From NCBI GenBank assembly GCA_016281015.1, contig JAEEHS010000013.1:62001-126000 (forward strand): a stretch of DNA of 64,000 nt, read 5' to 3'. This DNA is from Bacteroidales bacterium. GTDB lineage: Bacteria > Bacteroidota > Bacteroidia > Bacteroidales > UBA932. Shown in pieces: positions 19,978 to 32,791 of the stretch. The position numbers and the translations under genes were made by a program. The notes beneath the pieces are model-generated. The model was not told where the DNA came from. It searched no databases and worked only from the letters and a program-made list of their open reading frames with translations. Each line of letters begins with the position of its first letter. Position 1 is the stretch's first letter.

Positions 19978-22900
19978 TTAGAATTTAACACTGACTCCTG
20001 CCAGGAACGAGCGGAGGGTCGGCTGATAACCGAAATCGATGCCATAGTTGGCGGCGGCGGGGCCGGAGTCCTTTGTCACCTCGGGATCGTAGCCGTCATA
20101 CTTGGTCAGGGTGAGGGCATTGTCAACGGTCAAGAAGACCTTGACCCCCTGCATCTTGAGCCGGTCCATCCATTTCTGGGGGAGGCGGTAGGACAGGGTG
20201 ATGGTCTTGAACTTGAAGTAGGACGCATCCTCCAGGAAACGGTCGGAGGTCAGGATGTTGTAGTCCACATCCCAGCCCGTATGCATGCCGGAGACCGTCG
20301 GACGCGGAATCGTATTCGAGGTCCCGGGGCCTTTCCAGTAATGGAGGGCGGCATACTCGCTGACATTGAAATACTGCGTGTAATCCTTGGCGTCATCGCC
20401 TTTCACGCTGCCGGATGACTGACCCAGGTGTTCGGTGCCTTCCTGTCCGGCGCCCTTCCAGGCGGCGAAGATCTTCCCGCCGATGCTGTACTGGCAGAAC
20501 ACATTGAGTTCCAATCCTTTCCAGCTCAGGGACGTATTCAGTCCGCCGAAGAAATCCGGCGTAGCCTTTCCCGTAATCATCCGGTCGTTGTTGTAGTCGA
20601 TGTCGCCGTCTCCGTTGACATCGTAGTACTTCACGTCGCCGGCACGGACGCCCTTGGCATAGAGTTTCGCCGGGACTTCGCTGTCGTCCTGATACAGGCC
20701 CTCGGCCTTGAGGGTGTACCAGGTGGAGATCGGCTGTCCGGTGATGATGGCGTGCTTGTTGCCGCCATACAGGTTGGACGAATCCACAAAGATGATATCT
20801 TGGTCGTCCAGCAGCTTCACGAGACGGTTGCGGCTCCAGGAGAAATTGCCGTTCATGTCCCACTTCCAGTCACCCGACTGGATAATGGTCCCGCCGAGGG
20901 TCACTTCCACGCCCACATTCTCGATCACGCCGATATTGGACGCGAGGGAGGTGTAGCCGGAGGTGCCGATTACCGGCTTGTTGTACAGCAGGTCATCGGT
21001 CCGGGAATAGAAGGCGTCCACCTGCAGATTCATCCGGTCATCCAGCCAGGAGGAGTCGAAACCGGCATTCAGCTTGGTGGATTTTTCCCATTTCAGGCTC
21101 TGCGCCGGCGTGCTGAACGCCAGGCCGGAAACGCCGTTGTAGGCGCTTCCCGCACTCACCAGGTCCATCGCCGCCCAGTTGCCGATGCCGGCCATGGAAC
21201 CGGTCTGTCCGGCGGAAAGGCGCAGCTTGAATTCCGTCAGCACGTTGTTCTTCGGGAAGAAGGGTTCGTTGGTCACGATCCAGGCAAGGGAGCCTGCCGG
21301 GAAGAAGCCGAAGCGATTCTGTTTCGGGAAACGGGTGGAACCATCCGCACGGAACGAAAGGTTCAGGATGTAGCGGTTGTCCCAGTTGACGGCCGCCCGG
21401 GAGAAGAACGACTCCAGCGCATAGGCATTGTAGCCGATACTGCCCGGATAGATGGTCGTTCCGGAAGTAATCAGGTTGAAGGACGAAGACGGGAAGGCCG
21501 CATTCGCATAATTGTCGGAACCAGCCCCGAAGGTATTGTACTCATACTGCTCGTAGGAATGGCCGGCCATGATGTTGTAGTTGAGACGGCCGATTTCCTG
21601 GTTCCAGCTCACGACATTGTCGAAGACCCAGCGCAGCGAATTGTTCTTCTGCTCGGTCAGGGCGTGCCAGCCGTCCTTGTAACCCCGTTCGGTATTGAGT
21701 TCGGTCAGTTTCTTGACCGAATGGTCATAAATCGTATAGCCGCTGATCGAGGGCGTATATTTCAGGCCCTTGATCGGGGTGATGTCCAGCGAAGCCGTAC
21801 CGGAGAGCTGGTACTTGTTGTTGTAATAGTCCTCCTCTTCGATACACATGACCGGGTTGTGACGGCACAGACCATCGACGGACATCGTCCTGTAGTCGCC
21901 GCTGAGGGCGTTTGCATGGATTTCCTGCCCATACTTGTTGATGGTCCGGGTCGTATAGGGGGTGTACCAGGGCTGCTCCTCACGCGCCGCGCGGAGCACC
22001 TTCAGCGAGCCGTCCGTCTCTTCGGTCATGTCGTAGCGGGCATAAGCGCCGGCGATATGGACATTCACGGCAATCCAGGGAGCGATTTTGTGGCTCAGAC
22101 GGGTCCGGACCGTGTATTTGTTGAAAGCGGTCTTGTTGAGGTAACCTTCCTGCGACTCGTAGCCGGTGGAGAGGTAAAAGGTGGTCTTGTCGTTACCGCC
22201 GGAAACGCTCCCCGTCACGCTGCCGCGCTTGGCCCAGCGGCGCGAGATGGCCCCGACCCAGTCGAAGTCCGCCGGATTCTCCGGCACATACAGCTCCTTG
22301 AGGCTTCCTTTTCCTTTTTCGACCACATACACATTCCAGTTGTCCACCGCCGCCTGCATGACGTCAATGTACTGGGCGGTCTTTGCCATCTTGATATCAT
22401 GGGCGACCTGGGCGAGGCCGAAATGGGCATCGATGTCCACTTTCGTCTTGCCGGCCTTGCCGGTCTTGGTCGTGATGAGGATGACGCCGGCATTGGCCCG
22501 GCTGCCGTAAATCGCCGTCGCGGAGGCATCCTTGAGGACTTCCATCCGCTCGATGTCGTTGGCATTGATGTTGGGATAGCTCTCTGCCGGGATTCCGTCC
22601 ACCACATAGAGCGGGGAGGAAGATCCGTTGATCGAACTGACACCACGGATAATCACATTCGGGGTCGACCCCGGAATACCGGAGGGACTGGTGACACTGA
22701 CACCGGTCACCCTTCCCTGAAGGGATTTCATCGGGTCCACTTCCGCTCCGCGGTCAATCTCGTCCATCCGGACGGAGGAAATCGCCGAGGAAACCAGGCG
22801 CTTGGAGGCGGTGCCGTAACCGACGACCACGACTTCCTCCAACAGCTGGCTGTCTTCCTGGAGCGTTACCGAAATAAAACTTTGTCCCGCTACCGGTACC

Positions 22901-23172
22901 GCTTCCGTCTTGAATCCGAAAAAGGATACTTCCAGTACCGCATCTGCGGGAACGCTGAGGGAGAAAGATCCGTCCGCGGCCGTAACGGTTCCGACCTGGG
23001 CAGCTCCCTGCAGCATGACGGCGGCTCCCGGAATGGGGGCGCCCGTCACGTCATAAACTGCACCGCTTATGCTGACCTTCCCCTGCGCTCCTGCACCCAG
23101 GCTGATGCAGGAGAGCAGGACAAGGATCAGAAAGCGGCCGAAAGTCTGAATAAGACCTTTCATACCATGCAT
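19978..23172 (-). CDS. SusC/RagA TonB-linked outer membrane transporter 2
   Basis: A 1064-residue TonB-dependent transporter. Signal peptide about 1-29 (ATG at 23172 or 23163), carboxypeptidase-regulatory-like domain about 33-110 (ISGAVYDVTGAPIPGAAVML), LEEVVVVGYGTASKR near 113, plug domain about 125-240 (SLQGRVTGVSVTSPSGIPGS, YVVDGIPAESYPNINANDIE, YGSRANAGVILI) and a barrel ending LAGVSVKF. A DGDIDYNNDRMITGKA stretch near 860 resembles the calcium-binding-like loop seen in many SusC barrels. It pairs with the susD immediately downstream and sits six bases below the 658-residue beta-helix gene. Confidence 0.94.
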   Translation of the reverse strand: MHGMKGLIQTFGRFLILVLLSCISLGAGAQGKVSISGAVYDVTGAPIPGAAVMLQGAAQVGTVTAADGSFSLSVPADAVLEVSFFGFKTEAVPVAGQSFISVTLQEDSQLLEEVVVVGYGTASKRLVSSAISSVRMDEIDRGAEVDPMKSLQGRVTGVSVTSPSGIPGSTPNVIIRGVSSINGSSSPLYVVDGIPAESYPNINANDIERMEVLKDASATAIYGSRANAGVILITTKTGKAGKTKVDIDAHFGLAQVAHDIKMAKTAQYIDVMQAAVDNWNVYVVEKGKGSLKELYVPENPADFDWVGAISRRWAKRGSVTGSVSGGNDKTTFYLSTGYESQEGYLNKTAFNKYTVRTRLSHKIAPWIAVNVHIAGAYARYDMTEETDGSLKVLRAAREEQPWYTPYTTRTINKYGQEIHANALSGDYRTMSVDGLCRHNPVMCIEEEDYYNNKYQLSGTASLDITPIKGLKYTPSISGYTIYDHSVKKLTELNTERGYKDGWHALTEQKNNSLRWVFDNVVSWNQEIGRLNYNIMAGHSYEQYEYNTFGAGSDNYANAAFPSSSFNLITSGTTIYPGSIGYNAYALESFFSRAAVNWDNRYILNLSFRADGSTRFPKQNRFGFFPAGSLAWIVTNEPFFPKNNVLTEFKLRLSAGQTGSMAGIGNWAAMDLVSAGSAYNGVSGLAFSTPAQSLKWEKSTKLNAGFDSSWLDDRMNLQVDAFYSRTDDLLYNKPVIGTSGYTSLASNIGVIENVGVEVTLGGTIIQSGDWKWDMNGNFSWSRNRLVKLLDDQDIIFVDSSNLYGGNKHAIITGQPISTWYTLKAEGLYQDDSEVPAKLYAKGVRAGDVKYYDVNGDGDIDYNNDRMITGKATPDFFGGLNTSLSWKGLELNVFCQYSIGGKIFAAWKGAGQEGTEHLGQSSGSVKGDDAKDYTQYFNVSEYAALHYWKGPGTSNTIPRPTVSGMHTGWDVDYNILTSDRFLEDASYFKFKTITLSYRLPQKWMDRLKMQGVKVFLTVDNALTLTKYDGYDPEVTKDSGPAAANYGIDFGYQPTLRSFLAGVSVKF

Positions 23173-23178
23173 TTGATT

Positions 23179-25155
23179 TTAGTTGGCCTGATAAGCACCC
23201 GGCCACCAGGCCGCGCCGCGGGAGGTTCCAAGGGCATCCTTGCCGATGGCGCCGATTTCGCTCAGCCAGCTGTAGAAGGCGGTGCCAAGCTCTTCTGTAA
23301 TAATGGCATTCCCGTTCTTCACGGTAATACCCTTCAGCGCCGTCTCAAAGGCTGCCGGCGTCATCTTGGTAAAGCCCTCTGCAGGACCGGTCCACTTGTA
23401 GGCGCCCTTCGCCTCATCATAGCTGCCACCCGCAAGGCTCACTTCCGTCGCATCCGTGACATTGTTGGTATTCGTCACCAACGTTTCAATGCCATCACCC
23501 ATAGACGGCCCGAGGATACTGTTGTAGGCCGAGAACGGCGCTTTCATCGTAACTTTACCCTGGCTGTCCTTGGCGCCGACAAACGGGCTGCCCGCCGAAG
23601 AAGTGTTGATGACAAGACTGTTCGCAACCAGTACGGCATTGCTGCTGGCACTCGTGCTCCGGATGGTGACGAAGTCATCGGATTCGACGATGGTCGAATT
23701 CGTGAGGATGATGCTGCCGTCATTGTTCAGGCAGACGGCGTTGCCGCCCGTCACGGCATCTCCCGCGTCATTTTTCCGGACATTGCCGTAAATGGTGCAG
23801 TTGTTCAGGCAGGCGGCCGAAGGATTGGCGCCATGGAGGACCATGCCCCAGTCGGATGTCACCATCTGGTTGGCATAGAAAACACAGTTGTTGATAAAGG
23901 CGATCGATTTACCATTCAACTGGATCAGGCCACGGGAACGGCCCTTGTTGTTTTTGAAAACACAGTCGTTGATCTTCAGCACACCCGGATTCGAATCATC
24001 TTTCTGGACCAGGATGATGGCGGCCGCGCTGCTGTAGCAGTTTTCGAAAGTCGTCCCCTCGATATTCACCTCGGCCACCTGCATGGAAATGATACCGGAA
24101 GCCTTGTTGTTATTGGGGGTTTCCTTATCCAGCTCGTTGATAAACGCCCGGCAGTTCTTGAAGTTGCAGTTCTTGACATTCGTTACGCACCCGGCCGCGT
24201 TGGCATGGATTGCACCTCCGGTACCACCTTCCGTGTAGCAACCGTCAAAGGTGCAGTCCTCGAAGTTCTGTGTACCTTTGGAATTGTTGGAAGCGCCACC
24301 GGTATTGAACGTATGGCTCTTGAACGTGCAATTCTTGAAGTTGGCGATGGCATCCACCTTGTCCGTGTAAATAGCGCCGCCGTTACGGCCGTAGTTTTCC
24401 GCCTCGAAGACGCATTCCTCGGCCTCGATGGTGCCGTTGGCGCACCACAGGGCGCCGCCGCTGCATTTTGCCGTGCCGGACTCAGCTCCCGAGCTGACCC
24501 GGTTGTTGTCAAACACGGTCTTGCGAAGGACCAGAGCAGCCTTCCCACCTTCCGTTTCAGCATGGACCTTGATGCCGCCACCGTTCAGCGTCTCCGAGAA
24601 ACCGTCCTTGACCGCCATCCCGTCGATGGTGAGTTTCACCTGGTCTCCGACTGTCAGCACGCGGGCCAGCTTGTTGCCGCTGAGAATGGCGTTGGACGAA
24701 CCCTTGAGGGTCAGTTCCACGACCTTCTCGGCACCGGGGAGGGCGAGGATGAGGCCTTCCGTCTCCTCGGCGCTGAGTGGCAGCACATAGGTTCCGTCGG
24801 CGAAATGGATGGTGTAACCGTCAATCATGTCCAGGTCTTCGTAGACCGGAGGTACCGGAGTGGGATCCTCCCCTTCGGACTCCGGAGCGGAGTTGTTCAG
24901 AGCGAGGGTCAACAGTTCACGAAGTTCCTTGAAGCTGAAGGCATTGGCTTCGCTCTTGCCGTCCTTGGTGCCGGCCCCTTCCAGGGAGACATAGTAATCC
25001 TTGGTTTCCACGACAGCCGGTTCGTCACCGCCGCCGGGCTGATCCTGTCCACCGTTGTCGGTGTTGGCAGGGGTCTGTCCATTGTCCTTGCTGCAGGCAA
25101 GCGAAAGGGATACAATCGCCGCCGCAGTGAGAAGATAACTAAAAAAACGTTTCAT
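23179..25155 (-). CDS. Beta-helix lipoprotein, tandem paralogue A
   Basis: A 658-residue lipoprotein starting at the ATG at 25155 (MKRFFSYLLTAAAIVSLSLAC); the track uses a TTG two codons earlier. A Gly/Pro/Asp linker precedes KDYYVSLEGAGTKDGKSEAN, the start of the parallel beta-helix. Cys- and Asn-rich coils (NCTFKSHTFNTGGASNNSKG, NNCVFYANQMVTSDWGMVLH, NCTIYGN) run to about 600, and the end is GKDALGTSRGAAWWPGAYQ. Its last 400 or so residues are nearly identical to those of the upstream 868-residue protein, at protein and DNA level, so one arose by recent duplication. It lacks that protein's fimbrillin-like N-terminal domain. Function unknown; probably a surface-exposed binding protein. Confidence 0.78.
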   Translation of the reverse strand: MKRFFSYLLTAAAIVSLSLACSKDNGQTPANTDNGGQDQPGGGDEPAVVETKDYYVSLEGAGTKDGKSEANAFSFKELRELLTLALNNSAPESEGEDPTPVPPVYEDLDMIDGYTIHFADGTYVLPLSAEETEGLILALPGAEKVVELTLKGSSNAILSGNKLARVLTVGDQVKLTIDGMAVKDGFSETLNGGGIKVHAETEGGKAALVLRKTVFDNNRVSSGAESGTAKCSGGALWCANGTIEAEECVFEAENYGRNGGAIYTDKVDAIANFKNCTFKSHTFNTGGASNNSKGTQNFEDCTFDGCYTEGGTGGAIHANAAGCVTNVKNCNFKNCRAFINELDKETPNNNKASGIISMQVAEVNIEGTTFENCYSSAAAIILVQKDDSNPGVLKINDCVFKNNKGRSRGLIQLNGKSIAFINNCVFYANQMVTSDWGMVLHGANPSAACLNNCTIYGNVRKNDAGDAVTGGNAVCLNNDGSIILTNSTIVESDDFVTIRSTSASSNAVLVANSLVINTSSAGSPFVGAKDSQGKVTMKAPFSAYNSILGPSMGDGIETLVTNTNNVTDATEVSLAGGSYDEAKGAYKWTGPAEGFTKMTPAAFETALKGITVKNGNAIITEELGTAFYSWLSEIGAIGKDALGTSRGAAWWPGAYQAN

Positions 25156-25190: not shown

Positions 25191-27797
25191 TTAGTTGGCC
25201 TGATAGGCGCCCGGCCACCAGGCCGCGCCGCGGGCCGTTCCGAGGGCATCCTTGCCGATGGCGCCGATCTCGCTCAGCCAGCTGTAGAAGGCGGTGCCGA
25301 GTTCATCCTTAATCACCGTATTTCCGTTCTTCACGGTAATACCCTTCAACGCCGTCTCAAAGGCTGCCGGCGTCATCTTGGTAAAGCCGGCTTCGGGACC
25401 GTTCCAGGAATAAACATGATTTGTCGTGTCGTAAGCACCGCCCGTCAGCGTAGCAAGCGTCGCGTCCGTGACATTATTGGTATTCGCCACCAACGTAGCA
25501 ATGCCGTCCGCATTGTACGACGGGCCAAGAATGCTGTTGAAGGCCGAGAACGGCGCTTTCATCTGGGGATTGCCACTGTCAATGGCACCGACAAACAGAT
25601 TGCTCGTCGAAGAGGTATTGACCACGATACTGTTCGCCACCAGTACGGCATTGTTGTTTGCACTCGTGCTCCGGATCGAAACAAAGTCGTTGGATTCGAT
25701 GAGCGTCGAATTTGTCAGGATGATGCTGCCGTCATTGTTCAGGCAGACCGATTTACCTCCCGTCACTGCGTTCCCGGCATCATTTTTCCGGAAATTCCCG
25801 TAAATGGTGCAGTTGTTCAGGCAAGCGGCCGAAGGATTGCCCCCATGGAGTACCATACCCCAGTCGGATGTAACCATCTGGTTGGCATAGAAAACACAGT
25901 TGTTGATAAACGCAATCGATTTACCATTCAACTGGATCAGGCCACGGGAACGGCCCTTGTTATTCTTAAATACGGAATTCTGGCACTTTAAAACAGCGGC
26001 ATCGCTGTTCTGGACCAGAATTACTGCGCCGGCGCTGCTGTAACAGTTCTCGAAAGTAGTACCATCGATATTGACCTGGGCGGCCTGCAGGGAAATGATA
26101 CCGGAAGCCTTATTGTTATTAGGCTTGTCAAGTTCGGTCTTGAAAGCCCGGCAGTCCTTAAAGGTGCAGTTGTTGACATTAATCACGCAGATGCCTGATG
26201 CATTGGCATGAATCGCACCGCCGGTACCACCTTCGGTATAGCAGCCGTCGAAGGTACAATTCACATAATTCTGTGTTCCTTTGGAGTTGTTGGCAGCTCC
26301 GCCGGTATTAAACGTATGGCTCTTGAACGTACAGCCTGTGCAATTAACCACGGCCACCTCGTTGTTCGTATAGATAGAACCGCCGTTACGGGCGTAATTG
26401 TCTTTTCCGAACTCGCAATTAACTGCATTGAGCGTACCCTTGGAAACACGGATTGCACCGCCGGAAGTCGACGTGGCGTTCCGGTTATTATCCAGCAGCG
26501 TTCCACTTAAGTTGAGTGTGGCATCTCCGGAACTGCCGGCGCCAATCAGGATGCCTGCACCCTCACTGGCCTCCGCTTCGCGGTTGCCGTTCTTGACGGA
26601 CATCCCGTTCAAGGTCAGTTCAATTTGGTTGCCAAGTGTCAGGACACGGTACTTGTTATCTCCGCTGAGGACAGCGCTCTGCGTTCCTTCAAACGTCAGA
26701 TGGACCTGCTTGGGATACGAAGTGAATTCGAGTTTGAATCCCTCAGCATTCTCCGGGATGACATATTCTCCGTCCGCAAAGTGGATAGTCGCGCCATCGA
26801 GGATGGACGCCTTGAAATCAGCCTCGCCGTCTATCTGCTTGCCCTCGCCGTCGAGCGGCTGGCGGATAAAGTCGCGAAGTTCCGTCAGGCCGAAGGCGTT
26901 CGCAGCGCTCTTACCGTCTTTGGTGCCGGCGCCGGAAACGGATGCATAGTAATCTGTGATGATCTTATCACCGATCTGACCGGCATTGAGGAGCGTCGCA
27001 CGGGGCAGCACATATTCCGTCGTCCGGTAAGCGGCAGGAGAAACCACCTCGTCCTTGTAAAGGGCGATCGAAAAGCCGCTGAGGGTCGTCGGAAGAATGG
27101 CCACATAGTACTCACCCGCACCGCTGAGGCTGACCTCAACCGACTTGGCTGCGTTTTTCACCGTCCCGAGGGCAATATCGCTGCCCGCGAAAGTAACCGG
27201 AACCTCTCCGGCGAGAACCTCGCCTTTGGCCCCGCGGATGACCGCCTTGGTGTACTGGGCGGAAGCAACTTCAAAACGGATCAGGGAGCCCATGTTCAGG
27301 AAGGCGAACTGCTTGTCAGCCGCGCTCGTCTTGGCGACGGCGATGTTCGCCCCGGCAAAGGCACCGTCCTGGACCTTCGGGACCACGATTTTCAGCGTAT
27401 CCACCCCGCGGGCCGCGTCTGTGTCCATCGCGAGGGCGCTGGCGGCATCCTTGGGATACACCGCGTAATAGGAAGGAGCATCCTCGACTTCGGCGGAGAA
27501 GGTCGTGCTCTGTCCCGCCGATGCGGCCTTGGCGGAGACGCTTCCGGTGGCAGACCACCAGATGTTGATTTCATCATCGACGGCCCACTTGACAATCCGC
27601 TCGGAACCGCTTCCGTTTTCGATGGTTGTCTTGGTCGCCACGGAGCCGGCGACCGCTTTGAACAGGACGCCGTCCACGGCCTCTGCCGGCTGCTCCCCTG
27701 CAGGAGCCGCTTCTTTCTGATCCACTTCCTTGGCACAGGAAAGCGCGAGGGCAGCCATGGCCACCACAGCGCTGATACGGATAACATTCTTTTTCAT
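25191..27797 (-). CDS. Fimbrillin-like domain fused to beta-helix lipoprotein, tandem paralogue B
   Basis: An 868-residue lipoprotein, start at 27797 (MKKNVIRISAVVAMAALALSC). Residues about 40-275 look like a fimbrillin (Mfa/FimA-like) domain: TKTTIENGSGSERIVKWAVD, DEINIWW, YYAVYPKDA, FLNMGSLIRFEV, EYYVAILPTTLSGFSIALY. After DYYASVSGAGTKDGKSAAN the protein becomes a parallel beta-helix very similar to paralogue A and ends GKDALGTARGAAWWPGAYQ. The gene starts 13 bases after the stop of a 47-codon peptide gene, the first of the operon. The joining of a fimbrial-subunit fold to a beta-helix suggests a surface adhesin or fibre-associated protein; no enzyme residues are seen. Confidence 0.8.
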   Translation of the reverse strand: MKKNVIRISAVVAMAALALSCAKEVDQKEAAPAGEQPAEAVDGVLFKAVAGSVATKTTIENGSGSERIVKWAVDDEINIWWSATGSVSAKAASAGQSTTFSAEVEDAPSYYAVYPKDAASALAMDTDAARGVDTLKIVVPKVQDGAFAGANIAVAKTSAADKQFAFLNMGSLIRFEVASAQYTKAVIRGAKGEVLAGEVPVTFAGSDIALGTVKNAAKSVEVSLSGAGEYYVAILPTTLSGFSIALYKDEVVSPAAYRTTEYVLPRATLLNAGQIGDKIITDYYASVSGAGTKDGKSAANAFGLTELRDFIRQPLDGEGKQIDGEADFKASILDGATIHFADGEYVIPENAEGFKLEFTSYPKQVHLTFEGTQSAVLSGDNKYRVLTLGNQIELTLNGMSVKNGNREAEASEGAGILIGAGSSGDATLNLSGTLLDNNRNATSTSGGAIRVSKGTLNAVNCEFGKDNYARNGGSIYTNNEVAVVNCTGCTFKSHTFNTGGAANNSKGTQNYVNCTFDGCYTEGGTGGAIHANASGICVINVNNCTFKDCRAFKTELDKPNNNKASGIISLQAAQVNIDGTTFENCYSSAGAVILVQNSDAAVLKCQNSVFKNNKGRSRGLIQLNGKSIAFINNCVFYANQMVTSDWGMVLHGGNPSAACLNNCTIYGNFRKNDAGNAVTGGKSVCLNNDGSIILTNSTLIESNDFVSIRSTSANNNAVLVANSIVVNTSSTSNLFVGAIDSGNPQMKAPFSAFNSILGPSYNADGIATLVANTNNVTDATLATLTGGAYDTTNHVYSWNGPEAGFTKMTPAAFETALKGITVKNGNTVIKDELGTAFYSWLSEIGAIGKDALGTARGAAWWPGAYQAN

Positions 27798-27810: not shown

Positions 27811-27954
27811 TTAGTTCCAATCAACCGTAATCTCATCGTAATTGTCCGTGGTTCCTTCCCCGGACGCGCAGAAAGGTTCGTGCGCTACGCGCGCGATAAC
27901 CCGTAAAGCAGGGACAACATACTGTTTCCCTACCGTCATTTGACTGATGATCAT
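27811..27954 (-). CDS. Unlisted 47-residue peptide, first gene of the long operon
   Basis: Too short for the ORF track. It starts at an ATG at 27954 (MIISQMTVGKQ; a second Met is at codon 6) and ends at a TAA at 27811. The core YVVPALRVIARVAHEPFCAS aligns without gaps to YLRPCIEVYASHVEYPFLLS of the peptide encoded at 30793-30951, sharing Y, P, V, A, PF, S and the following G at the same spacing; both have acidic tails ending in N or NY. Both lie immediately before a fimbrillin/beta-helix lipoprotein gene. There is no signal peptide or membrane segment. The shared pattern with different codons argues for real, conserved coding. Function unknown: leader, chaperone-like partner or peptide precursor are all possible. 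Confidence 0.75.
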   Translation of the reverse strand: MIISQMTVGKQYVVPALRVIARVAHEPFCASGEGTTDNYDEITVDWN

Positions 27955-28023
27955 TTTGTTACGTTTTATATGTTATTAGTTATCATTTGCAAACCTAAAC
28001 GGTTTTCTTATGCGGTTACAATG

Positions 28024-28066: not shown

Positions 28067-28504
28067 TCAGTCTTTTGTCGGCAACGTTGAGAATGCGTTC
28101 CAAATCTGTCCTGCCATATAGGCCATGCCGGTCGAATTGGGATGGACGTTGTCGTTGGTGGAGGCGGAGCGGTTGGCGAACACCACCTCGACATACGGCA
28201 GGGAATAATAAAGGACGACAAGCGCATATCCGGCTTCATTGAAGAGGTCTTTGTAAAAAGCACCCTCATAGCCGTCTGCACCGGGGATGGAAGAATAACC
28301 TCCACCCGGACAGACAATCGCCAGCGGACAGCGGCGCCCTTCCGTCGGCGGGAAATAGATTTTCATCCGCGGGCTGTCCACCTCAACGATCCTGGCTTCC
28401 AGGGCCGGGACTTCGTCCTTTCCATTCTCTGACGCTTTATCGCAGGAGAGAACCGAGAGAAGGACAAGGCACACGGCCCCCAAAAACAGGAATACTCTTT
28501 TCAT
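28067..28504 (-). pseudogene. Chimeric remnant: alpha/beta-hydrolase start joined to SGNH-esterase end
   Basis: A 145-residue lipoprotein ORF (start 28504, MKRVFLFLGAVCLV, lipobox LSVLSC). Residues about 45-105 match the start of a BD-FAE/acetylesterase-type alpha/beta hydrolase, including the oxyanion motif PGGGYSSI and GALYKD-like and YALVVLYYSLP segments, but the nucleophile elbow is absent. At residue about 107 the sequence switches to EVVFANRSASTNDNVHPNST, which looks like the last block of an SGNH/GDSL esterase carrying the Asp-x-x-His pair, followed by GMAYMAGQIW. The simplest reading is a large in-frame deletion in a two-domain esterase. It is two bases below the 757-residue lipoprotein gene. 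Probably not catalytically active; still translatable. Confidence 0.6.
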
Positions 28505-28506
28505 TG

Positions 28507-30780
28507 CTAATTCTGATATGCTCCCGGCCACCAGGGAGTGCCGCGGGTTACTCCGCGGGCGTCCTTACCCAGTGCGCCGATTTCTTTGAGCCAGGCGTAG
28601 AAGTCGGAGCCGACGTTGGAAACACCTGCCATCGATACAGTGCAGGCCTTTATCGCGTTTTCGACGTCAGCAGCCGTTGCAGGAGTAAAACCTGCAATGG
28701 TTCCAGACCAGGAGTACACTCCATCCGAATAAGTACCACCGAGGACAGAGTGGGTCTGGCCATACTTGTCGGTCGCCGGGGTGCTGTCAAGGACATTTCC
28801 CTGCGCCGCACCTGATCCGCGGACGTTATGGCCGTAATTGTTCAGGGTTATGCTTCCCCTGACCCAGAAGGTATAGTTCGGAGCGGATTCATTGGAAATG
28901 ATGTTGTTGCACATTGCCAGGTTGTGAATCTTCTGATACACGCTTTTGTAGATGTCATTTATGCGGACTTCATACTGGCCTCCACGGTCAATCAGCGTGC
29001 TGTTGGTGATGATGAAGCCGCGGTCGCAGTTGAAAGCGCAGGAATTCGATGTCACATTCTCAGTATTGTAATTGCCGAACGACGTGACGTTGTTCATACA
29101 GAAAAAGGAATTGCCCCCGTGGATACACACACCCCAGGGATTTGAACCCTCCGTAGTGGTGTTGCCATTGAACGAGACACCGTTCAGGTAAACGAGCACA
29201 TTGTCGTTGACACGTATGACACCTCGGGAACCCGCCGTGTTGCCCACAAAGCTGCAATGGTTGATTTTTATGACATTCGTGCTGTTCGCAAAGATGCAGG
29301 CGCCGCCGCCGTCCCCGGCGGATCCGGTAGCTTGGTTGAATTTGAATGTACAGTCATTGAGATTCAATTTGGCATTCCCTGTGGCATACAGCGCACCTCC
29401 TGCAGGGGCGTAATTCTTGCCCGCATCGGTGCCGTCTCCGAAAGTGCAGCCATTGAACGTCACTTCCGAGTTTGCACACATATAGAAAGCACCTCCGTAC
29501 TTACCGGCGGTGGTGATTGAATTCTTGATGAATCTGCAGTTGTCAAAAACAATCGTGAATTCCCTGCTGCTGTTGCCGATACGGAAAGCCCCACCGTCGT
29601 TGCTGTTTCGGCCGCCCTGGAAGGTAATATTCTTGAATGTTACGAACTCGCCAGTTTGCTTGTAAATATCAAAAAGGAGTTTATTGGACGATCCGTCAAT
29701 GAATGTGTCTTCGGCGCTGTGCCCGATAATATTGGTCCTGATGGAAATATTGGGGGCTATTTTGGCGGAAAGCGAATAGGTGCCTGCTGCAAGGCGGATG
29801 TTCACGCCGTCATAAAGGGCCAGCGTGGCGGCATCCCTGGAAGAGGAATTCTCCATGAAGCCCTTGAAAGTGGCAAGGTCCCAGGGCTTGTCGGCGGTGG
29901 CGCCGTTGTTGGAGCTGCTGCCCGAAGTGCTGACATAGCGGTTGGTGGCCTTGGCGGGGAGGCTTCCCCAGTTCACAAGGCTGCCACGTTCGTCTGCAAG
30001 GTCTTTTGCGTGCCAGTAGGCTCCGGCCTTCTCGGTCTTGGCTTCTCCGCGATAGAACTGGAAAGTGAGGTCGGAAGCCGTCTTGGCGACATCCGGCATA
30101 ATGGGAAGATAATAGGTTCCGGCCCCTGAAAAGTCAAGAGTCACCTCACTCGCGACATTGTCCCGGGAATACACGGAAGGAACTCCGGAGTTGAAATCAA
30201 GAGCCATGGCCGAAGCCGAAAGAGCATTGTCTCCTGCGGAGGAGAGTATCAGGCGCGTGACATCGGTGCCGTCACCGTCAACGACTATTTTATACCATGA
30301 CACGGGATGGCGGAATGTGACCGACTCGGCGGACGCGTCGCAGTTTGCGACGAAAACAGCGGGAAGGACATCCTTCTGCACAGCAGGCATGTTAATTTTG
30401 AGTCTGCCGCCCTCGATGGAAGCCCCGAGGCTTGAAGGATACACCATCCAAAGGGCGGTAGCCCCGTCAGGAACGGAAAGCGAGAAAGTGGCGACGCCGT
30501 CGCTGACGGCTGCAGTCGCCGTTGTGCTGCCGCCCTCGTACAAGACTTTAATTTCATCTCCGGCCTGCCAGGTATAAGTGATGCTTGCACCTTCATCGGC
30601 AGCGGAAACGCGCGTGACAGGATTCTCGACATTGGCCCTGATGCTGATGGTCACAAGATCGTCTTGTGGAGTCGTGGCGGGTTCTGCGGAATTTTCAGGA
30701 AAAGCGGTTTCCTTATTGCAGGAAACTAATGCGGCCAATCCGAGCAGGGCGGAAGCTATATAAACGAAATACTTTTTCAT
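28507..30780 (-). CDS. Fimbrillin-like domain fused to beta-helix lipoprotein
   Basis: A 757-residue lipoprotein (AALVSC lipobox). Residues about 40-270 resemble a fimbrillin domain (NPVTRVSAADEGASITYTWQ, AGDEIKVLY, ALWMVYPSSLGA, FRHPVSWYKIVV, GTYYLPIMPD). A linker leads to NRYVSTSGSSSNNGATADKP and a parallel beta-helix of about 400 residues (NCRFIKNSITTAG, NGCTFGDGTDAG, NHCSFVGNTAGSRGVIRVND). The end is GKDARGVTRGTPWWPGAYQ. It has the same architecture as the 868-residue protein but is clearly more diverged. The gene starts 12 bases after the second small peptide gene, repeating the arrangement at 25191-27954. Likely surface-located; function unknown. Confidence 0.8.
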   Translation of the reverse strand: MKKYFVYIASALLGLAALVSCNKETAFPENSAEPATTPQDDLVTISIRANVENPVTRVSAADEGASITYTWQAGDEIKVLYEGGSTTATAAVSDGVATFSLSVPDGATALWMVYPSSLGASIEGGRLKINMPAVQKDVLPAVFVANCDASAESVTFRHPVSWYKIVVDGDGTDVTRLILSSAGDNALSASAMALDFNSGVPSVYSRDNVASEVTLDFSGAGTYYLPIMPDVAKTASDLTFQFYRGEAKTEKAGAYWHAKDLADERGSLVNWGSLPAKATNRYVSTSGSSSNNGATADKPWDLATFKGFMENSSSRDAATLALYDGVNIRLAAGTYSLSAKIAPNISIRTNIIGHSAEDTFIDGSSNKLLFDIYKQTGEFVTFKNITFQGGRNSNDGGAFRIGNSSREFTIVFDNCRFIKNSITTAGKYGGAFYMCANSEVTFNGCTFGDGTDAGKNYAPAGGALYATGNAKLNLNDCTFKFNQATGSAGDGGGACIFANSTNVIKINHCSFVGNTAGSRGVIRVNDNVLVYLNGVSFNGNTTTEGSNPWGVCIHGGNSFFCMNNVTSFGNYNTENVTSNSCAFNCDRGFIITNSTLIDRGGQYEVRINDIYKSVYQKIHNLAMCNNIISNESAPNYTFWVRGSITLNNYGHNVRGSGAAQGNVLDSTPATDKYGQTHSVLGGTYSDGVYSWSGTIAGFTPATAADVENAIKACTVSMAGVSNVGSDFYAWLKEIGALGKDARGVTRGTPWWPGAYQN

Positions 30781-30792
30781 GATACCTGCGGT

Positions 30793-30951
30793 TTAATAGT
30801 TAAAATCGTCATCCTCAGTTGCATCGATGACCGTTAGATTGTCAGGCTTCCCGCCGGACAGCAAGAAGGGGTATTCAACGTGGCTGGCATAAACTTCAAT
30901 GCAAGGCCGCAGATAATGGTTCAGGCGGTTATTGTTTTGTGTCCTCATCAT
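30793..30951 (-). CDS. Small 52-residue peptide, homologue of the one at 27811
   Basis: The track gives 89 residues from 31062, but the ATG at 30951 (or 30948), MMRTQNNNRLNHYLRPCIEV, is preferred because the longer part is AT-rich, hydrophobic and covers the presumed promoter. The core YLRPCIEVYASHVEYPFLLS aligns gap-free with YVVPALRVIARVAHEPFCAS of the other peptide, then SGG/SGE, then an acidic tail DDDFNY. It precedes a fimbrillin/beta-helix lipoprotein gene by 12 bases, as does the other. No signal peptide. Short Bacteroidota peptides of the form Y-x-x-P-x-x-x-V are common and uncharacterised; I know no function for them. Confidence 0.7.
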   Translation of the reverse strand: MMRTQNNNRLNHYLRPCIEVYASHVEYPFLLSGGKPDNLTVIDATEDDDFNY

Positions 30952-31174: not shown

Positions 31175-32791
31175 ATGACAGGAAATAAAGTCATCCTCCC
31201 GGGCCTTGCCGCCCTGCTCGTCTTCGGGGCTGTTTCATGCCGCAAAGCGCCCTTGTATGACCCGAAAGTCGCCGCAGCCCTTGACGAACTCGACCGGGTC
31301 ATGCTTCAAAAAGACAGCATTGCAGCTGCCAAAGAGGCCGGTATCGACCTCCTTCGTCCGACGCTCGACGACGCCCCGGATGCAGTGTCCGCCTACCGCA
31401 TCTGTGACGCCCTCTATGCCGAATATGAAAAATGGAATGTGGACTCGGCCTTTTCCTATGCCCATCGGAAGTCTGAACTCGCCTCCATCGCCGGTGATGC
31501 CATTCTTGCCGCCGACGCAGCCATCGACCTGGCCAACAGTTACATGATGGCAGGCATGTACCATGATGCGATAGCCTCCCTCGACCGGGTTGACCAGGCG
31601 GCCATCATGGAGACGCCATTGCAGCACAGATACAACTATCTCCGCTACGACATATACCACAATCTGCTGGTGGATACGCAGGATGCCCGGAAAGAACGCG
31701 AATATAAGGAGAAAGAAATACAATGCCTGAACCTCTGCGACCGCACCGTCAGCGGAGACATCATTGAATACTACAACACCAAGGCCAATATTCTGATTGG
31801 CAGCGGCCATCCGGAAGAGGCTATCTCGCTGATGAAATCCAGGCTTGAAGGCCCTTCCATGAGCCTTCCCGGAAGGGCCATGCTCAATTATTGGATGGCA
31901 AAAGCCTACAATGCCATGGGCGATGAAAGCAATGCGCTGTACTACTACGCCGTGGGGGCGCGTTATGATTTTTTGAGCCCGGTGAAGATCTATGGATCTC
32001 CAATCTTAGTAACCAAGATGTGTTTCGAAAAAGGTGATATCAATCGCGCCAACCGGTATATCATGCGTAATTACGCCGATGCGGTTTCGATGGGCGCCCG
32101 TTATCGGATCAACTTGATTACAGAACGGCTTCCCCTGATCACGAATACCTATGAATCCAAAATTGTAATCCAGAACCACCAACTCCGGAGCACATCGGCT
32201 GTGTTGCTTGTCATGATCTTTATGCTAGGCGTGAACCTTTTCTTCCTCAACAGGAATCGCAACAGGTTACATCGGGCAAACGCGGCCATCTCTCTTCAGA
32301 CTGCGCGGTTGGAAGAGTCCAATAGAATCAAGGATACCTATCTGGGGCAGTTTCTGTCGATGTACTCAGAGCATATCGACTCCCTGGAGCGCTTCCGCTC
32401 CAACCTGAGGGTGACAGCCAAGCAGATGGATTTCGGCGCCATCCAGAAAGAACTCCGCTCCGACAGCTTCGTCGATGCAGAATGGAAAGTACTGTTCGAC
32501 AAGTTTGATGAAACCTTCCTCGGCCTTTTCCCAGACTTCCCGGAGCATTTGAACTCGTTGCTGCTTCCCAATAAGCGCCTGAATCTGCCCGCCACAGCCG
32601 GAAAACTGAACAATGAACTCCGAATCTTCGCCCTGATCCGCCTCGGCGTCACGGATTCCAAGCGCATCGCCAAATTCCTTCGGCTCTCGCTCCCTACGGT
32701 TTACAACTACCGGGTCAAATTGCGCAATGCCTCTGCCGGCGACCGCGACACCTTCGAAGACCGCATCAAAACCATCGGCTCCATTGTCTGA
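31175..32791 (+). CDS. DUF6377-type transmembrane regulator with TPR sensor
   Basis: A 538-residue protein. N-terminal signal/anchor (LAALLVFGAVSC, which could be a lipobox), then about 300 residues of helical repeats resembling TPRs (YMMAGMYHDAIASLDRVDQ, MAKAYNAMGDESNALYYYAV), a membrane segment near 338-360 (SAVLLVMIFMLGVNLFFLN), a coiled coil, and a C-terminal DUF6377 domain ending in a helix-turn-helix (RIFALIRLGVTDSKRIAKFL, RLSLPTVYNYRVKLRNAS). This is the layout of Bacteroidota regulators that sense in the periplasm and bind DNA in the cytoplasm. It is divergent from the peptide/fimbrillin/beta-helix unit and is its most likely regulator; control of the longer related operon is possible too. 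Confidence 0.82.
   Translation: MTGNKVILPGLAALLVFGAVSCRKAPLYDPKVAAALDELDRVMLQKDSIAAAKEAGIDLLRPTLDDAPDAVSAYRICDALYAEYEKWNVDSAFSYAHRKSELASIAGDAILAADAAIDLANSYMMAGMYHDAIASLDRVDQAAIMETPLQHRYNYLRYDIYHNLLVDTQDARKEREYKEKEIQCLNLCDRTVSGDIIEYYNTKANILIGSGHPEEAISLMKSRLEGPSMSLPGRAMLNYWMAKAYNAMGDESNALYYYAVGARYDFLSPVKIYGSPILVTKMCFEKGDINRANRYIMRNYADAVSMGARYRINLITERLPLITNTYESKIVIQNHQLRSTSAVLLVMIFMLGVNLFFLNRNRNRLHRANAAISLQTARLEESNRIKDTYLGQFLSMYSEHIDSLERFRSNLRVTAKQMDFGAIQKELRSDSFVDAEWKVLFDKFDETFLGLFPDFPEHLNSLLLPNKRLNLPATAGKLNNELRIFALIRLGVTDSKRIAKFLRLSLPTVYNYRVKLRNASAGDRDTFEDRIKTIGSIV

Follow-up and report, generated by a model that had tools for sequence, protein, structure and literature searches.

A large family of small peptide genes adjoining fimbrillin-like lipoprotein genes in Bacteroidales

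Two short open reading frames (ORFs) in a 64,000-nucleotide stretch of DNA from a Bacteroidales bacterium (hereafter, the window) are conserved protein-coding genes and belong to a large family that adjoins genes for surface proteins. The existence of this family is well supported; how it acts we infer. A sequence-only reading of the window had pointed to an ORF at positions 27811 to 27954 and a relative at 30793, each 12 to 13 nt ahead of a lipoprotein gene. Both ORFs are present, and their kinship was established through a family profile and not by pairwise BLASTP. The spacing was seen for both: peptide 1 ends 13 nt, and peptide 2 ends 12 nt, ahead of the MKK start of its lipoprotein. The genes and elements concerned are as follows:

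19978 to 23172, minus strand: SusC/RagA-family TonB-linked outer membrane protein in the peptide 1 operon (TIGR04056, E = 2e-254)
23179 to 25155, minus strand: the other lipoprotein gene in the operon of peptide 1; no fimbrillin domain was seen in it, and no peptide gene accompanies it
25191 to 27797, minus strand: SPII lipoprotein, partner of peptide 1; fimbrillin-fold N terminus to about residue 280, then right-handed beta-helix-like repeats, the latter judged from sequence appearance only
27811 to 27954, minus strand: small peptide gene 1, 47 amino acids, MIISQMTVGKQYVVPALRVIARVAHEPFCASGEGTTDNYDEITVDWN; YxxP-FCxSG core, tail EITVDWN
27990 to 27997, minus strand: promoter-like -7 box TAGGTTTG, assigned from sequence, 35 nt before the peptide 1 start
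28067 to 28531, minus strand: short lipoprotein of 154 amino acids behind the partner of peptide 2; weakly similar to acetylxylan esterase AxeA1 (E = 4e-6, a score well short of the model cut-off), possibly the remnant of a truncated acetylxylan esterase
28507 to 30780, minus strand: SPII lipoprotein, partner of peptide 2; fimbrillin-like N terminus, then a beta-helix-like region; match to partner profile A4 at E = 6e-54, its own sequence being a row of A4
30793 to 30951, minus strand: small peptide gene 2, 52 amino acids (51 from the next Met), MMRTQNNNRLNHYLRPCIEVYASHVEYPFLLSGGKPDNLTVIDATEDDDFNY; YxxP core, FLLSG replacing FCxSG, acidic tail EDDDFNY
31175 to 32791, plus strand: divergent SusR-family/DUF6377 regulator (NF058541, E = 4e-115, below the cut-off; PF19904, E = 2e-57)

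Compared directly, peptides 1 and 2 gave no BLASTP alignment, even at E <= 100, being too diverged pairwise, and the case for a better-than-chance relationship therefore comes from the family of relatives. Searches of congeneric genomes with single peptides returned short ORFs of the same size ahead of similar lipoproteins. A family profile (A1, built from 8 members) gave matches in 183 of the 250 genomes searched from the genus, up to 17 in each, and a larger profile (A2) scored 17 times in the genome of the window at E <= 0.01. Peptides 1 and 2 were matched there at E = 1.9e-12 and 7.4e-11, respectively, each being itself part of the profile. With the profile reversed as a control, 61 genomes gave 6 matches at E <= 0.1, close to the chance expectation. 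Copy numbers often exceed twenty and reach about 25 per genome. That the peptides are chance ORFs without function might be argued from the window pair alone, which is not significantly similar; the hundreds of relatives, the calibrated controls, and the signature of purifying selection contradict this view, and we consider it extremely improbable. Searches of phages and plasmids gave no convincing match to the peptide, and the peptide region had no match in Rfam.

Family members are about 40 to 60 residues long, typically about 45, and share a common layout: K/R..Y-x-[SAT]-P..V..E-[GS]-x-[LF]-C-x-S, then a linker of G, S, or T, and finally an acidic tail with [FL]-x-W at its end. The sequence logo resolves into three parts: a basic start with the core Y-x-[SAT]-P-x-[ILV]-E-[VLI]..E-[GSE]-[VLIM]-[LF]-C-x-S, a linker of G, S, T, or N, and an acidic stretch running to [FL]-x-W. 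Among the 80 peptides found with the profile, YxxP is present in all (starts were picked for that motif), CxS in 72, and an aromatic residue within the final four positions also in 72; the final 20 residues contain on average 5.1 acidic and 0.4 basic residues. Structure prediction returned the lone peptide as unstructured, as would be expected for two motifs joined by a linker. The cysteine had been placed in a similar region of both window peptides, which did not hold: in peptide 1 it occupies the conserved position (PFCASG), whereas Leu fills that position in peptide 2 (PFLLSG), whose Cys comes immediately after YxxP. We also rejected Cys as an essential residue, since 10 of the 67 profile-found members have Leu, Ala, or Ile instead, and in other families Ala often takes its place.

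The pattern of substitution is that of a protein-coding gene. Diverged peptide pairs have a pS of ~0.6 against a pN of ~0.2 to 0.3, a few near-identical pairs being uninformative for this ratio, and the selection check on relatives that the earlier reading had proposed thus indicates purifying selection. Codon choice within the peptides is free, with all four Pro codons and both classes of Ser codons in use.

The peptide genes are found next to lipoprotein genes almost without exception. An SPII lipoprotein gene lies directly 3' of 79 of the 80 profile-found peptides (77 passed a pattern test, and inspection by eye showed a lipobox in L081 and L116, two of the three that failed it). Most gaps fall between -20 and +40 nt, and the commonest value is 12 to 13 nt. 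An independent scan of 84,980 named genomes used a DNA motif for Y-x2-P-x3-V-x5-E-G-[VIM]-L-C-x-S and ignored neighbors; it returned 115 stretches, nearly all titled Bacteroidales. Among the 80 loci listed, a lipoprotein gene came next for 72 of 76 evaluable peptide ORFs, one of them (L168) counted by eye. Named carriers with an adjoining lipoprotein include Bacteroides sp. An322, Candidatus Parabacteroides intestinavium, and Phocaeicola faecicola. A lipoprotein query against the named genomes gave no matches. The SusR-like regulator at 31175 was considered as a general neighbor of the peptides and dropped, as no homologue was found in the motif-scan loci. We checked for a lack of conserved orthologues near such genes, and the relatives do adjoin them. 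The suggestion that conserved pairing marks a functional peptide is now strongly supported by the family profile, the adjacency, the motif scan, and purifying selection.

We also asked the reverse question. In the 2.35-Mb genome that contains the window, profile A4 detects 44 fimbrillin-like genes. A peptide gene lies directly upstream of 25, with a weak score in three cases, and is missing from the other 19, of which 17 stand -7 to 45 nt behind another same-strand gene. The contrast is significant (Fisher p = 2.5e-10), and it compares genes with and without a peptide without implying that every peptide heads an operon. The sequence-only reading had made each peptide the first gene of its operon. 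This may hold for the two in the window; across the genus, another same-strand gene lies immediately ahead of 58 of 131 peptides, and we therefore dropped the generalization. The peptide is better described as an insert before certain fimbrillin genes than as the 5' leader of an operon.

At eight loci (L161, L172, L174, L201, L223, L230, L050, and L086), the peptide gene lies directly behind a gene ending in MAxGGGFAISF, which appears to encode a GH97-type glycosidase, and the adhesin gene comes next; this would make a recurrent glycosidase-peptide-adhesin unit. In L210 and L389, the gene upstream of the peptide has a long Gly-Tyr repeat tail, presumably like that of polysaccharide tyrosine kinases, a hint that some units end capsule clusters. 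Loci L196 and L216 contain tandem peptide-adhesin units on the same strand, suggesting duplication as two-gene modules.

To characterize the partner, the N-terminal 300 amino acids of the lipoprotein encoded at 25191 to 27797 were modeled from a 43-row alignment (pLDDT 78). In a Foldseek search with this model, the top 11 PDB matches were Bacteroidales proteins of the cell-adhesion/fimbrillin type (probability 1.0, best E = 1.7e-7), led by the Bacteroides fimbrillin-type adhesins 3ufi, 3t2l, and 4k4k; the matches are modest, with a best TM of only 0.46 to 0.49 and an rmsd of 6.3. P. gingivalis PG0181 and Mfa4 matched more weakly. As modeled, the N terminus has the two-domain fimbrillin beta-sandwich fold. 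The fimbrillin models of Pfam and NCBIfam matched none of the window proteins or family partners scanned. Since they likewise miss the domain among the members scanned of the 44 fimbrillin-like genes in the window's genome, many divergent adhesins are probably unannotated.

The short distance to the lipoprotein start raises the question of a cis-acting leader ORF, whose translation, ending about 12 nt before the lipoprotein start, would couple or attenuate translation of the adhesin. The gap is tight, 12 to 13 nt in 36 of 139 loci, as such a leader would favor. Promoter-like boxes precede the peptide and rarely lie inside it, which also suits this reading. The 25 nt preceding the peptide start are 77% A+T, and TAnnTTTG occurs within 150 nt upstream of 53 of 139 peptide genes versus 6 of 139 equal stretches inside lipoprotein genes. 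RNA of the peptide ORF is, in addition, somewhat more folded than in-gene controls (mean z of -1.3 versus -0.67). However, the lipoprotein start sites are not more paired than the in-gene control (0.50 versus 0.59), and no sequestering structure was found. Conservation at the protein level with free codon choice, the variable distance from the core to the stop codon, and the many peptides that stand directly behind another gene likewise count against a leader. Two further observations, the position of the peptide in other lineages and the behavior of its tail, argue in the same direction and are considered next; on balance, we find a cis-acting leader rather unlikely.

The family extends to other Bacteroidales families, where GFAxS or GIAxS variants of LCxS occur, mostly before lipoproteins. 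A mixed profile (A7, E <= 0.003) had matches in 21 of 344 genomes from Bacteroidales. Among 346 genomes sampled across the phylum, it matched a single genome from outside the order, in which all four copies precede lipoproteins. A different arrangement was found in a Prevotella-like genus (G359 and its genus), which has up to 23 peptide copies per genome at E <= 0.001: 21 of 29 examined peptides are directly behind a gene with a T9SS-like C terminus, Y-x-L-x-G-x-R..G..I..NGKK..K. Several of these peptides, in loci L326 to L355, overlap the upstream T9SS-like gene by 4 nt (offset -4). In two other families, three peptides come after genes whose products score above the cut-off of the T9SS model TIGR04183. 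NCBIfam does not recognize the Prevotella-type C-terminal endings, so that the assignment to T9SS in that genus is one that we infer. The cores of the fimbrillin-linked and T9SS-linked groups align with an hhalign probability of 97%, a homology confined to the 25-residue core. Because the peptide lies 3' of its partner in these lineages, a 5' cis role is excluded there.

We then compared the evolution of the peptide with that of its neighbor. In the profile-found set, similarity of the tail correlates with that of the adjacent fimbrillin domain (r = 0.49; 0.25 without near-orthologous pairs), although this could partly reflect slower evolution of the tail, as the rates of tail and core may differ. 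The corresponding values are 0.07 and -0.05 for the core and 0.22 and 0.05 for the lipoprotein signal peptide; tail and core themselves are uncorrelated (r ~0). Among distant pairs of the motif-scan set, it is the signal peptide that co-varies more than the tail (0.42 versus 0.18). The tail tracks the partner and the core does not, which suggests that the tail is matched to its partner and that the core serves something common. With this and the 3' position elsewhere, a role as translation leader alone, one of the three that had been proposed, is disfavored. Shared regulation might by itself account for the neighborhood, the peptide being a co-transcribed small protein with no direct tie to the adjacent one, and a few relatives (L204 and L227) do lack an adjoining surface gene; given the near-exclusive adjacency and the co-variation of tail and partner, we judge this improbable.

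Of the proposed roles, that of an assembly or export partner fits best, as far as sequence can indicate. We tentatively favor, at somewhat less than even confidence, a model in which the peptide acts in trans as a bipartite partner matched to the surface protein encoded next to it. Its constant half (YxxP..V..E-G-x-L-C-x-S) would attach to a component common to all pairs, and the variable acidic half, ending in [FL]-x-W past a flexible linker, would engage the mature domain of the neighbor, for example to hold or hand over the fresh adhesin during export or assembly. The most likely site of action would be the cytoplasm, at or before export, because the peptide has no signal peptide or hydrophobic stretch. 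Counting against this partner model, 19 fimbrillin-like genes of the same genome manage without a peptide.

The same bipartite plan could instead describe a processed and exported peptide, similar to a RiPP or pheromone, in which the core is a leader for common machinery and cleavage near C-x-S releases the acidic tail as a signal or surface ligand. A constant N-terminal half, a conserved small-x-Ser boundary, and a variable tail that evolves independently of the core would all be expected of such a precursor. There is, however, no signal peptide or GG leader; no modification or exporter gene was noticed in the neighborhoods read; an NCBIfam scan of 71 members gave no RiPP precursor above the cut-off and one lasso match below it; and many copies, each with a different adhesin, would be unusual for a pheromone. 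We regard processing of this kind as unlikely. More doubtful still is a reading in which the core is a novel export or docking signal and the peptide travels with the adhesin, its [FL]-x-W tail acting as a matched strand, cap, or ligand; the pairs would then form a general Bacteroidales two-gene module for the surface display of fimbrillin-like lipoproteins and T9SS cargo.

The family is found in most sampled species of one gut genus and is tied to adhesins and secreted proteins that meet host and diet; it would fill a gap in the account of how dominant gut bacteria assemble their surface. Because fimbrillin-like genes overlooked by current models can be recognized by the adjoining peptide, the family would help to annotate very divergent surface adhesins. 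No known small-protein family matched the peptide in Pfam, NCBIfam, PHROGs, or PDB, and a search of mainly the open literature, the main small-gene catalogue aside, found no paper on the pairing of peptide and surface protein. Such short ORFs are, we assume, often annotated as "hypothetical protein" in Prevotella and Bacteroides genomes, and small-ORF catalogues may include single members; the link to surface proteins and the bipartite plan appear undescribed.

Several known systems invite comparison. The fimbrillin (Mfa/FimA-like) type V pilin operons are close in that the partner lipoproteins have the same fold as solved Bacteroides proteins labeled "putative cell adhesion"; the partners differ in that their N termini score below every tested Pfam and NCBIfam fimbrillin model, and they usually carry extra C-terminal domains. 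We know of no described fimbrillin operon with such a peptide. Leader-peptide attenuation is known for the resistance genes tetQ and erm and for tnaC, where a short ORF likewise lies just ahead of the controlled gene; the present family differs in being conserved in protein sequence over many lineages with a tail of variable length, in having no sequestering structure found, and in lying 3' of the partner in some lineages. RiPP and double-glycine precursors also combine a constant N-terminal with a variable C-terminal part, whereas the peptides here have no GG site, have no maturation or export genes noticed nearby, and are nearly always beside a surface protein. Type III secretion employs small dedicated secretion chaperones. 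Compared with these, the peptide is much shorter and predicted to be unstructured, its partners use the Sec/lipoprotein route or T9SS, and a sequence relation was checked through Pfam and NCBIfam only; by analogy, it would resemble them as a small acidic protein encoded beside its exported partner and probably specific to it.
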